IMG/VR virus record: IMGVR_UViG_3300020810_000021
Coordinates: 1 to 30,781 of that record
DNA length: 30,781 nucleotides
Strand: one strand, 5' to 3'
From: a virus
The position numbers and the translations under genes are program-made. Below, piece after piece: positions 2,680-28,900 of this stretch. Numbering within the stretch: position 1 is the first letter of the stretch; each line of letters starts with the position of its first letter. The notes under the pieces were generated by a model, which ran no database searches, was not told where the DNA came from, and saw only the letters and a list, made by a program, of their open reading frames with translations.

Positions 2680-4485
2680 ATGGCAGGTGAAGTAGCACAA
2701 ATAGAACAAGCAATTGGTACAGAGAACTTAGCTAAGACACTAGCTGGATTATATAACCAATGGTGGATTCAAAGAAATAATAAAGAATCAGAATGGAGAG
2801 AGTTAAGAAATTATCTCTTTGCTACTGATACTACAACTACTTCTAATAGTTCTCTTCCTTGGAAAAACAAAACTACTCTTCCTAAGTTAACACAGATTAG
2901 AGATAATTTACATGCTAACTACATGGATGCTTTGTTCCCTAATGACAACTGGATGAAGTGGGAAGGAGCTACGCAAGAAGCTACTACCATGAAGAAACGT
3001 AAAGCTATTGAAGCTTACATGAAAACTAAACTCAAAGAGTCTAAGTTTAGAGAAGAGATTAGTTTACTTGTTTATGACTATATAGACTATGGTAATGCGT
3101 TTGGTGAGGTTATGTATGTTAATGATTCTCATGTAGATCCTATTACTGAAGAAACTATTACAACTTATAATGGTCCTAAACTAAAAAGAATATCTCCATT
3201 TGATCTTGTCTTTAATCCTGTAGCATCTTCCTTTGCTAAGTCACCTAAGTTTACTAGAAAAGTAACCTCTATTGGTGAACTTAAAAAACAACTAACTACC
3301 CGTCCTGACTTAAACTATAATAAAGCAGCATTTAATAAAGCTGTAGACATTAGAAAAACTATTTCTATGTTTAGAGTTGAGGATGTAAACAAAGCAGAAG
3401 CATTTATAGCTGATGGCTTTGGTACACTACAAGAATACTATCAATCAGGTATGGTAGAGATACTAGAATTTGAAGGTGATTGGTATGATAAAGATGAAGA
3501 TAAACTTTATGAGAATAGACTTATAACAATCATTGACAGATCTTATATTCTAAGAAACATAAAGAATCCTAGTTACATTGGTCATGACAGCAAAGCTCAT
3601 GTAGCATGGAGAAAACGTCCTGATAACTTATATGGTATGGGACCACTAGATAACCTAGTAGGTTTACAGTATCGTATTGACCACCTAGAGAATGCTAAAG
3701 CAGATGCACTAGACTTAACTATCCATCCCCCTATGGTAGTTAGAGGGGAAGTAGATCCATTTACTTGGGGTCCTGAGGTAACTATTCATTTACAAGAAGA
3801 TGGTGATATACAAATGTTACCACCTAACCCTGCAGCTTTTCAAGTTAACAACGAGCTAGCAGCATTAATGAATACAATGGAAGAGATGGCGGGTGCTCCT
3901 AAAGAAGCAATGGGTATCAGAACTCCAGGAGAGAAGACAGCCTTTGAAGTACAATCATTACAGAATGCTGCTGGTAGAATATTCCAAAATAAAGTTAATC
4001 AGTTTGAGATTGAGTTCCTAGAACCTGTTCTTAACATGATGTTAGAAACTGCTAAACGGAATCTTAACTTACCAGAGTTAGCTAAAGTCTATGATGATGA
4101 CTTTGGTGTACAAGACTTCTTATCTATTACTAAAGAAGATTTAACCGCACGTGGTAAGATTAGACCTATAGGTGCTAGACACTATGCAGCTAGAGCACAG
4201 CTACTACAGAACATTCTAGGTGTATTTAATAGCCCAATTGGTCAAATGATTGCTCCACATGTATCACCTAAACATTTAGCCGAAATGGTAGAGGAGTATA
4301 TGGGTTTTGATAAATATGGATTTATTAAAGATAATGCTGCATTATTTGAAGCAGGAGAGCAAGAAAAGATTAAAATGCAGATACAACAAGATTTACAATC
4401 TCAGCAAGCAGCTCCTTCTATGGAAGAACAAATGGTTGACCAACAAATCAATCAAGTAGAAGGACAACTACCTCCTGAGATGTAA
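2680..4485 (+). CDS. Portal (head-tail connector) protein
   Basis: A 601-residue protein at the position and length of podovirus portals, between TerL and scaffold. Portals form the dodecameric ring at one capsid vertex through which DNA enters and leaves. Supporting sequence includes an N-terminal region rich in Trp and Arg, the central RPDNLYGMGPLDNLVGLQYR (about residues 310-329) and the helical segment MAGAPKEAMGIRTPGEKTAF near 406-426, a pattern seen in T7-like connectors. A Gln/Glu-rich C-terminus (QQDLQSQQAAPSMEEQM) is also typical. AAGGAAATA upstream gives a reasonable ribosome binding site. The stop codon lies inside an inverted repeat next to promoter P1. Confidence 0.93.
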   Translation: MAGEVAQIEQAIGTENLAKTLAGLYNQWWIQRNNKESEWRELRNYLFATDTTTTSNSSLPWKNKTTLPKLTQIRDNLHANYMDALFPNDNWMKWEGATQEATTMKKRKAIEAYMKTKLKESKFREEISLLVYDYIDYGNAFGEVMYVNDSHVDPITEETITTYNGPKLKRISPFDLVFNPVASSFAKSPKFTRKVTSIGELKKQLTTRPDLNYNKAAFNKAVDIRKTISMFRVEDVNKAEAFIADGFGTLQEYYQSGMVEILEFEGDWYDKDEDKLYENRLITIIDRSYILRNIKNPSYIGHDSKAHVAWRKRPDNLYGMGPLDNLVGLQYRIDHLENAKADALDLTIHPPMVVRGEVDPFTWGPEVTIHLQEDGDIQMLPPNPAAFQVNNELAALMNTMEEMAGAPKEAMGIRTPGEKTAFEVQSLQNAAGRIFQNKVNQFEIEFLEPVLNMMLETAKRNLNLPELAKVYDDDFGVQDFLSITKEDLTARGKIRPIGARHYAARAQLLQNILGVFNSPIGQMIAPHVSPKHLAEMVEEYMGFDKYGFIKDNAALFEAGEQEKIKMQIQQDLQSQQAAPSMEEQMVDQQINQVEGQLPPEM

Positions 4486-26756: not shown

Positions 26757-27467
26757 TTATACATCTTCTACGTTACCCCAGCTATTACCTACTTGTATAT
26801 CAACCCTAACTGGGAGGTTGAAATCTTTACCAAACAAATGTTTAAAGTTTGCTGGTACATTCTCAAATGATTCTTTAACAATTGGAACTATACTATTAGT
26901 ATAACATATCTTTTCATCAAAGTCAAGCATGATAGAGTCATGTACAGTATTGATTAATTTAACACCTTCCATGTTTACTATCTTGTTATACAAACTAACA
27001 CGAGCTATAGTCATTAGGTCAGCACCGAGTCCTTGCACTGGATAGTTAAGGATTCGTGTGCGAGGATACTTAAGGTTACCTTGACTATTAACCTCAGGTT
27101 GATACTTATATGTTCTGCCTGTTGGCATTACTAACTCATTAGTTTGTTTAACATCAAACATTATCTTATCATGCCATGCCTTAAGTCCTGTATACTTAGC
27201 ATAGAACTGATCAATAACTCTTTGCCAAAATGTTTCATTACCTATGTCTTTAAAGTTAGGATCATTGGCATAACTAAAAGCACTACCACCATAGATTAAT
27301 CTAAAGACAAAAGTCTTTGCAATCAATCTACTAGGTAACCCAAACTTTTGTTGGTTATCTGTATGTTGATCTGTCTGTTCCATTATCTCTTTGATAGCTA
27401 CACTATCTTGAGATAAAAACGCAGCACATACCCATTCTAGTTGTTTTGCATCTGCATTAAGTAACAT
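26757..27467 (-). CDS. DNA polymerase A, catalytic (palm-fingers) fragment
   Basis: A 236-residue C-terminal part of a family A polymerase. Motif A is NADAKQLEW (Asp6, Glu11). Motif B/O-helix is RLIAKTFVFRLIYGG with Arg47, Lys51, Phe55 (E. coli Phe762 position) and Tyr59. Motif C is VHDSIMLDF (His176-Asp177-Ser178), with Ser in place of the usual Glu. The first 26 residues continue directly from where the upstream fragment (27737-28900) stops, so together they make one complete polymerase of about 623 residues (T7: 704). It has its own ATG with CAGGA upstream, one base after the stop of the inserted 88-aa gene. Activity requires that the two pieces associate, or that RNA or protein joining occurs. 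Confidence 0.9.
   Translation of the reverse strand: MLLNADAKQLEWVCAAFLSQDSVAIKEIMEQTDQHTDNQQKFGLPSRLIAKTFVFRLIYGGSAFSYANDPNFKDIGNETFWQRVIDQFYAKYTGLKAWHDKIMFDVKQTNELVMPTGRTYKYQPEVNSQGNLKYPRTRILNYPVQGLGADLMTIARVSLYNKIVNMEGVKLINTVHDSIMLDFDEKICYTNSIVPIVKESFENVPANFKHLFGKDFNLPVRVDIQVGNSWGNVEDV
26898..26926 (-). promoter_or_regulatory. Candidate intragenic promoter P3 in PolA fragment
   Basis: On the minus strand: TTGACT (26926-26921), 17 bases, TATACT (26903-26898) preceded by TGT. The spacer matches P1 and P2 at A8-A10, A12, T13, T15 and G16. It lies in the motif C coding region, so coding constraint could explain part of the match. Its start would lie about 150 bases upstream of the SSB gene. 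Confidence 0.5.
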
Positions 27468-27468
27468 A

Positions 27469-27735
27469 TTATAATCCTGAGTTAGCTTCTACTAATCTCT
27501 TATGATAATTATTAATAATAGATTGAGATAGTTCTAATCTAGCATCTTTATCTAGTAAAGCTAAAGTTGTTGTTGGACCATCTTTAAGTATCATGTTGCT
27601 AAATTCTACACTAACAAAATGTTTGTGTGCTTCTTCTTGAGCAGCAATGTATTCTTCTTTAGTCATTTCTACGTGATCATCCTTTCTAAATTTTAATCGT
27701 TTTTCTAAATGTTCCCAATTATCTTCTTCGTTCAT
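27469..27735 (-). CDS. Free-standing 88-aa gene inserted between PolA halves
   Basis: An 88-residue charged helical protein: MNEEDNWEHLEKRLKFRKDD, then EMTKEEYIAAQEEAHKHFVS, then LLDKDARLELSQSIINNYHK. GGAG precedes its ATG at 27735, which follows the N-terminal polymerase stop (TGA at 27739-27737) by one base. Its own TAA ends one base before the ATG of the catalytic fragment. It shows no HNH, GIY-YIG or LAGLIDADG motif, so it is not a recognisable homing endonuclease. It interrupts the polymerase exactly between SRYGE and the motif A strand. It may have been left after a mobile element decayed, or may help join the two subunits. Confidence 0.82.
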   Translation of the reverse strand: MNEEDNWEHLEKRLKFRKDDHVEMTKEEYIAAQEEAHKHFVSVEFSNMILKDGPTTTLALLDKDARLELSQSIINNYHKRLVEANSGL

Positions 27736-27736
27736 G

Positions 27737-28900
27737 TCATTCTCCGTATCTAGATGGAAAGAGAGTTTTAATCTCACCATCAAAGTTTTGTAGGTTAGGC
27801 TTACTACTACTTAGCCTACCTGTCTTAGTCCTACATTGATTAAGTTGACCATGTATGATTCCATTAGCCCAGTGCATCTCATCAATTAGTTGTGGCACAC
27901 CATGATAGTATGTAGTCATACGTTTCTGCATGGTAGCACGTGCCAATATAATTCTTAATATTTCTTTACCTTCATCACTACGTGGTGTTAGCTTACGTAA
28001 GGTCTCTTCATTCGTACTGAAGAACCCTTCTTTTTTAAGCTCAGTCTTAGGCAAAGGATTTATTCTTCGTGGAAATTCTTTGTCTTGTTCTTCCCACCTA
28101 TACTTAACTTCGCCTGTGCGTACGCCAGTTTTGTAATGTCCAATGGGGCGTTGAAAACGCTCCTTAATGATCCCACCATAAAGAAAAGCAGAAAGATGCT
28201 CGCCAGAATTGGGATTAAAATTATCGTAAGCATGAAAGTCATACAGCTTCTTGTTAAGTTTGGATATCTGTTCTTCAAGTTCATCTCCTAATACTTTAGA
28301 CTTATCATAATCATACTGCATACCATTGTATTCCATAGCTTGCAGCACTAGTAAGTCTTGGTTGTGTAGAGCTATGAGCTTACGGAGATGAGGTCGTTTA
28401 GACAACTCTTCCATTTGCTTGACCATAACTTTCTCAGTTAGTTCTAAGTCTCGTTGTAAATACTCAGACAGTATCTCTTCAGGTACCTCAGTAGTATCAA
28501 TACCATTCTTCCAATAGTTTTCTTTAACCTCATCTAGTTTATTACCTAGACCATAGTACTCTGATGTTGCATCTAATGATGGATAAGAATTTTCTTGGTT
28601 AGATAATACATACTGTACTAACTGGCAGTCCCATATTCTTTTCTTATCAAAGGTAATACCATATCTTTTAAGCCAGTGTAAATCAAACTTAATATTAAAC
28701 CCTACCAACACATCGCACTTATCCACGGCTAATTGGATACGATCAAGTGATTCTCGGTAAGGTTCAACGGAGAACTCTATGTCTTCTATACTAACTTCAT
28801 TTTGTGATAACATACCAACCATACATAACTTGTTAGTCTTATCAAAAGGATTACCATTATTACTAATGGTTGTTTCTACGTCTAATACTAAGTAACTCAT
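27737..28900 (-). CDS. DNA polymerase A, 3'-5' exonuclease and N-terminal fragment
   Basis: A 387-residue N-terminal part of a family A polymerase. The proofreading exonuclease is intact: Exo I LVLDVETT (Asp7, Glu9), Exo II VGFNIKFDLHWL, Exo III YLQRDLELTE. After a thumb-like helical region it reaches the pre-motif A element RTKTGRLSSSKPNLQNF and stops at SRYGE, exactly where other PolA proteins continue into motif A. The rest is encoded by 26757-27467 after a separate 88-aa gene. It starts in an ATGA overlap with the helicase. Together with the catalytic fragment it replicates the phage genome. Confidence 0.92.
   Translation of the reverse strand: MSYLVLDVETTISNNGNPFDKTNKLCMVGMLSQNEVSIEDIEFSVEPYRESLDRIQLAVDKCDVLVGFNIKFDLHWLKRYGITFDKKRIWDCQLVQYVLSNQENSYPSLDATSEYYGLGNKLDEVKENYWKNGIDTTEVPEEILSEYLQRDLELTEKVMVKQMEELSKRPHLRKLIALHNQDLLVLQAMEYNGMQYDYDKSKVLGDELEEQISKLNKKLYDFHAYDNFNPNSGEHLSAFLYGGIIKERFQRPIGHYKTGVRTGEVKYRWEEQDKEFPRRINPLPKTELKKEGFFSTNEETLRKLTPRSDEGKEILRIILARATMQKRMTTYYHGVPQLIDEMHWANGIIHGQLNQCRTKTGRLSSSKPNLQNFDGEIKTLFPSRYGE

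Follow-up and report, generated by a model that had tools for sequence, protein, structure and literature searches.

A family A DNA polymerase encoded in two genes across a phage clade, with exchangeable small genes at the junction

Essential phage enzymes that are encoded in two genes are known from Aeromonas phages. In phages 25 and 44RR the family B DNA polymerase gp43, and in Aeh1 the nrdA gene, are split with an endonuclease or other sequence lying between the two parts, and the halves are active together: the gp43 halves of phage 25 co-purify and are active, and the split NrdA of Aeh1 is active as well (PMC2988022). Another point of reference is phage T4, where genes 39, mobA, 60.1 and 60 carry a 50-nt bypass (PMC3014915, PMC5009743), and where the combination of an HNH endonuclease with the bypass process has been described as apparently unique to gene 60 (PMC3014915). 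Closest to the present locus are the Methylophilales phages MEP401 and MEP402, for which the gene order polN, small ORF, polC has already been published and an intron considered possible (PMC10580990), so the bare observation of a split with a small ORF is not new.

Here we analyse a family A DNA polymerase (PolA) of a marine phage on a stretch of viral DNA of 30,781 nt (IMG/VR record IMGVR_UViG_3300020810_000021), the whole of which is called the window. The window shares its gene order with MEP401 and MEP402, but where the paper on these phages leaves the intron open (PMC10580990), we find an intron to be unsupported, and an insert that is exchanged and that the clade as a whole can do without. 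In comparison to gp43 and nrdA, the polymerase of the window belongs to family A, has no endonuclease between its parts and has a split that is fixed over a clade, while the assembly of its halves is something that we infer. The new points are the clade-wide split (138 loci), the independent exchange of inserts, the finding of no intron, and motif A interruptions that are linked to HNH endonucleases. Throughout a large and widespread phage clade the replicative family A polymerase has existed as two genes, with the break at a structurally defined turn; it offers natural parts for split polymerases and a means to test how an active site is put together from two chains. In the relatives, an endonuclease is linked many times independently to very short interruptions of an essential active site, and the way in which homing endonucleases, gene splitting and translational bypass combine becomes directly testable.

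The split polymerase of the window

The locus has the following features:

27737..28900, minus strand: polN, 387 aa, ending in SRYGE with stop codon TGA; 3'-5' exonuclease-like domain, thumb and first part of the palm of a family A DNA polymerase
27742..27745, minus strand: GGAG, putative Shine-Dalgarno-like site of ORF88, within the last polN codons
27469..27735, minus strand: ORF88, 88 aa, predicted small all-helical protein between polN and polC
27475..27478, minus strand: AGGA, putative Shine-Dalgarno-like site of polC, within the last ORF88 codons
26757..27467, minus strand: polC, 236 aa, starting MLLNADAKQLE; family A catalytic part, from motif A onward
27435..27452, minus strand: motif A codons D-A-K-Q-L-E of polC, unbroken here and broken in 21 distinct relatives

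The three genes occupy three different frames. The two polymerase genes match the N part (polN, 1e-19) and the C part (polC, 5.8e-26) of PF00476, the matches of polC in the PDB begin at motif A, and polN has a weak match to the 3'-5' exonuclease family PF01612 (1.1e-4, slightly short of the curated cut-off). ORFs, frames and the two halves of PF00476 confirm the original prediction of a split PolA with an 88-aa gene in between, and the separate ribosome binding sites which it assigned to ORF88 and polC were located as the GGAG and AGGA sites, both Shine-Dalgarno-like as read from the sequence. polN is 79% identical to gp13 of MEP401, and polC is 84-85% identical to gp15 of MEP401 and MEP402. 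The split PolA lies in a replication module with Toprim primase-like, DnaB-type helicase, 5'-3' exonuclease, endonuclease I, metallophosphoesterase and ribonucleotide reductase genes, which has 77% DNA identity to those two phages. By its gene order with an exonuclease-like polN, its break point and its membership of the split clade, the locus is a MEP401-type split PolA.

Alignment of split and intact phage PolAs places the break just before motif A. Intact PolAs read ...KKLFISRFGDDGQIIQSDFSSLE..., the window reads ...KTLFPSRYGE / MLLNADAKQLE..., and only a few turn residues are missing at the junction, so the earlier reading of the joined halves as one uninterrupted PolA holds. In the PolA structure this site is a turn that joins two palm strands, immediately ahead of motif A.

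The PolA of ICP2 and VP41s3 is likewise encoded in two genes and broken near motif A, but its break is situated about 14 residues upstream (PNLQNISN / MSDIKRCIISRF) and its origin on the tree is separate. Window-type split PolAs form one clade (support 98/94), whereas the ICP2 type falls together with intact PolAs, those of phiKT and of Pseudomonas phages; since it sits among intact PolAs, the two types of split look like two events. VpV262, SIO1 and Vibrio phage 1.015.O each have an unsplit PolA. In the ICP2 and VP41s3 loci (L124:2453-4546 and L125:1724-4054), VP41s3 also has a small ORF between the halves.

A sequencing error as the cause of the split was considered and rejected. Three independent IMG/VR contigs (sample numbers 20173, 20174 and 22925) are 100% identical over all three genes, and with 138 distinct loci split alike this objection, raised together with the original prediction, can be set aside.

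A fixed split with a variable spacer

Viral contigs and annotated phages were scanned, and both halves were found at 200 loci. Of these, 138 are distinct split loci, all broken at the same point as the window. The two-gene polymerase is fixed, as had been proposed, although the queries were taken from split members and the fixation holds for the clade rather than for all PolAs. The polC of an Alcaligenes phage, used as a query, had no match in the viral contigs.

In contrast to the break point, the spacer between polN and polC is highly variable, and ranges from overlapping genes (TAATG, or an overlap of 17 nt) to 3.6 kb. It may contain nothing, a member of the ORF88 family (33 distinct loci), a member of a second small helical family that we call YP (27 loci, i.e. 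L323:2792-2974 and 26 more junctions in another part of the clade), or an HNH endonuclease; a winged-helix protein, membrane-like peptides and an R67-type dihydrofolate reductase domain are found as well. The last of these (PF06442, 2.7e-22) lies between the polymerase halves of the environmental phage MW202697 (L004:3590-3796). The longest spacer, at L003:429-3999, is 3.6 kb long, and among its genes are one for a cytosine methyltransferase and one that is stomatin-like. At 29 distinct junctions the spacer is shorter than 110 nt and holds no ORF88-like ORF. A profile match between the YP and ORF88 families (hhalign, single-test P 8e-4, probability 25%) is suggestive of a distant common origin. 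At L010:454-1134 the end of polN and the insert are of MEP401 type, and the polC body after them resembles the PolA of HMO-2011 type, with 33% identity to the window; this contig is either a natural recombinant or an assembly chimera.

Homologues of ORF88 occur in 33 contigs, and their sequences indicate that the insert is swapped independently of the polymerase halves. Among 21 insert-bearing loci the identities of polN and polC are strongly correlated (0.93), while those of polN and the insert are not (0.23). Between the window and L008, dS is 0.85 in polN and 0.50 in polC but 0.02 in the insert. The identities of polN, insert and polC are 99, 41 and 94% to L040, as opposed to 61, 80 and 67% to L012. 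Tracts of high identity in the insert reach into the conserved flanks, which fits recombination through conserved polymerase sequence. Homologues of ORF88 that stand alone, and that are closely related in sequence to the insert of L028, are found at L036:3911-4132 and L035:2592-2813; no family A polymerase was found in these two contigs, which may be incomplete.

The AlphaFold2 model of ORF88, based on 23 sequences, is all-helical (pLDDT 84, pTM 0.48). The model has no match among PDB folds and only weak ones in BFVD (best E 0.6), and the sequence matches nothing in Pfam or PHROGs, endonucleases included, in agreement with the original remark that the gene carries no homing-endonuclease motif. 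ORF88 is most likely a small accessory or selfish gene rather than a required subunit. Since the spacers run from overlap to 3.6 kb and some hold no ORF, the 88-aa protein is not generally needed for joining the halves. The suggestion that the insert bridges the halves does not stand as a rule, given the 29 short junctions, the independent swapping and the homologue in contigs where no PolA was detected. Alignments of the ORF88 family show conserved residues, and together with the presence of a small helical gene at 33 + 27 of the 138 junctions this leaves room for a role with the polymerase, possibly an auxiliary one that is restricted to the lineage of ORF88.

HNH endonucleases and interrupted motif A codons in relatives

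No HNH endonuclease gene is present between the halves in the window, but relatives have one. In L110 the spacer encodes a 142-aa HNH-type endonuclease (phrog_3322, 8e-29). Its nearest relatives among viral contigs (L151-L157, L233-L237) are without exception encoded at the junction of a split PolA, between polN and polC. A search with the profile of this lineage found it at 11 distinct junctions, and L140 is a further, divergent case. The trait changes 9 times on the tree, with at least 8 changes forced. As several lineages that are separate on the tree have HNH endonucleases at the junction, the earlier proposal that the insertion is the relic of a mobile element is plausible; however, most junctions have no HNH and at least 8 changes are forced, so repeated invasion of an existing split fits as well as an ancestral cause.

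The same lineage is associated with a break of the polC frame, which falls a few codons into the gene, close to the codons that separate the catalytic Asp from the next Glu. The frame is broken in 11 out of 11 loci with the junction HNH lineage (-1 to +8 nt) and in 10 of the 127 distinct loci without it; the remaining 117, the window included, are unbroken. Fisher's test gives 6e-11 if loci are taken as independent, but this value, like the binomial value below, ignores relatedness. The test on the tree accounts for relatedness and is much weaker: about 7 of 8 independent pairs have HNH and interruption together and none the opposite (median p 0.016), while the interruption changes 17 times, at least 14 of them forced. 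The gap may protect from cleavage by the linked endonuclease; what the data show is the association of the two (11/11 vs 10/127). L140, with an HNH and unbroken motif A, was not counted, as its polC has an interruption at motif B. Two of the ten broken loci without the lineage (L329, L336) carry other HNH types, and L313, L314 and L346 have another HNH type with motif A unbroken.

The interrupted loci and the forms of the interruption are:

Broken, with the HNH lineage: L110, L152-L157, L233, L234, L236, L237, L326
Broken, without the HNH lineage: L004, L138, L319, L328, L329, L335, L336, L338, L348, L358
L237: CTG TAA CTG GAG
L335: CTT TAG CTT GAA
L358: CTT TAG CTT GAG
L157: CTT TAG CTC GAA
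L154: CTT TAG CCC GAA
L326: CAG TAG CGG CTA GAA
L153: CTT C CTT GAA
L233, L236: CTT T CTT GAG
L155: CAA ATATG CAG CTT GAA
L138: CTC to CTT by +2
L152, L319, L338: CTT TA, then GAA or GAG
L328, L331: CTT TGA G, as at the site where the release factor 2 gene frameshifts
L110, L234: -1 shift in GCAAAGCA
L004: +1 in a run of A
L336: +7
L329, L348: +10, beginning with TAG

A stop codon directly follows the last normal codon in 12 of the 21 cases (binomial 2e-11, assuming independence). In 15 out of 21 the resume codon stands for the same amino acid as the take-off codon, although the pairing was done by hand and some of the pairs would arise anyway from tandem duplications. A start codon lies 5-6 codons ahead of the Asp in all 21, most with a strong Shine-Dalgarno sequence. 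In the closest pairs dN/dS 3' of the gap is 0.10-0.14, meaning that the part downstream of the gap is under selection as protein.

The interrupted loci are nearly all metagenomic; no cultured phage with an interrupted motif A was found, only the environmental record MW202697. Sequencing error is nevertheless unlikely, given that the break falls on a single spot in 21 distinct loci. L155 and L156 are the same sequence from two assemblies, L233 and L236 are concordant from two metagenomes, and odd polC lengths elsewhere occur in only two of the 138 loci. Single-nucleotide cases such as L004 are possible sequencing errors. Stop-codon reassignment was also considered, and fails for the gaps that change the frame.

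Probable origin of the split and possible translation across the gaps

The split, the position and fixation of the break, the exchange of inserts and the HNH genes at relatives' junctions can be read off the sequences. The explanation that we favour, with a probability of roughly 0.8, is that the family A polymerase would be made as two polypeptides which reassemble without a covalent link, the split being ancestral and fixed in a large phage clade rather than the product of a live intron. The junction would be a hot spot for the uptake and exchange of small genes, and the 88-aa gene would be one such resident, swapped by recombination via the conserved polymerase flanks and dispensable clade-wide. 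A free-standing HNH homing endonuclease is the likelier source of the original break, given the distinct HNH lineage that many relatives have at the junction. There is a rival for this last step: a simple stop-and-restart mutation, in a turn that tolerates it, with HNH and other cargo arriving later, has in our opinion somewhat less than an even chance of being correct. It would agree with the many junctions without an HNH, with the repeated changes of the HNH label on the tree, with the tightly overlapping junctions, and with ICP2 and VP41s3, which are split 14 residues away and have no HNH. On the other hand, several HNH-family types occupy the junction across the depth of the clade, and an HNH is easily lost.

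A junction that is the relic of a group I intron or intein and is still removed to give one polymerase chain seems very improbable, although phage DNA polymerase genes often contain introns and one was suggested for MEP401 (PMC10580990). An intein was ruled out, as there are three frames with separate stops and starts and no continuous frame. Rfam searches gave no intron match at the window junction, nor in L110 at lax thresholds, and the RNA fold of the junction is not better than shuffled sequences. The same search does find a group I intron in the polC of L141, at motif B rather than at the split (RF00028, 61.6 bits, E 2.5e-13), which makes the negative result at the window junction informative and bears out the doubt about such an intron that accompanied the original prediction. 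Moreover, there are separate stop and start codons with putative ribosome sites, and the TAATG junctions of relatives leave nothing for removal. It is also rather unlikely that ORF88 is a genuine third subunit which bridges or chaperones the halves in MEP401-type phages. Its position and order are kept in 33 distinct junctions, it has conserved residues and in some pairs a low dN/dS, and the second small helical family lies at the corresponding place with a suggestive profile match (P 8e-4, probability 25%); against this, many junctions are too small to hold ORF88, it is exchanged independently of the halves, and homologues occur in contigs without a detected PolA. The intron of L141 is at 3086-3451, and L140 has at this same motif B site an insert with a second HNH-like ORF (L140:2331-3001).

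For the interrupted relatives of the two-gene polymerase we lean, with less confidence than for the split itself, towards a recurrent mobile cassette that consists of the junction HNH and the very short interruption of motif A in polC. The indel in the motif A codons would remove the cleavage site of the linked HNH, and ribosomes would regain the frame by a hop or slip from one matched codon to its partner, e.g. CTT TAG CTT, CTG TAA CTG, CTT T CTT or CTT TGA. Readthrough of the 6-nt forms would add two residues beside the active-site Glu and cannot cover the frame-changing forms, therefore hopping or slippage over the polC gaps is preferred. The window would be an HNH-free relative with a circulating small gene now at its junction.

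It is instructive to compare this arrangement with T4. As with mobA and gene 60, the relatives have a split gene, an HNH and a small ORF in between, and an interruption at the 5' end of the second gene; as in gene 60, a stop codon follows the take-off codon and the codons are matched. The differences are that the gaps of the relatives measure -1 to +10 nt as opposed to 50, that they occur in many lineages, and that the window has neither gap nor HNH. The short gaps resemble the synthetic stop-hops reviewed in PMC5009743. If the reading is true, the relatives would supply, from many lineages, a series of natural cases of what has been described as apparently unique to T4 gene 60. Contigs of bacterial genomes yielded one further split PolA (L392), in which motif A is intact.
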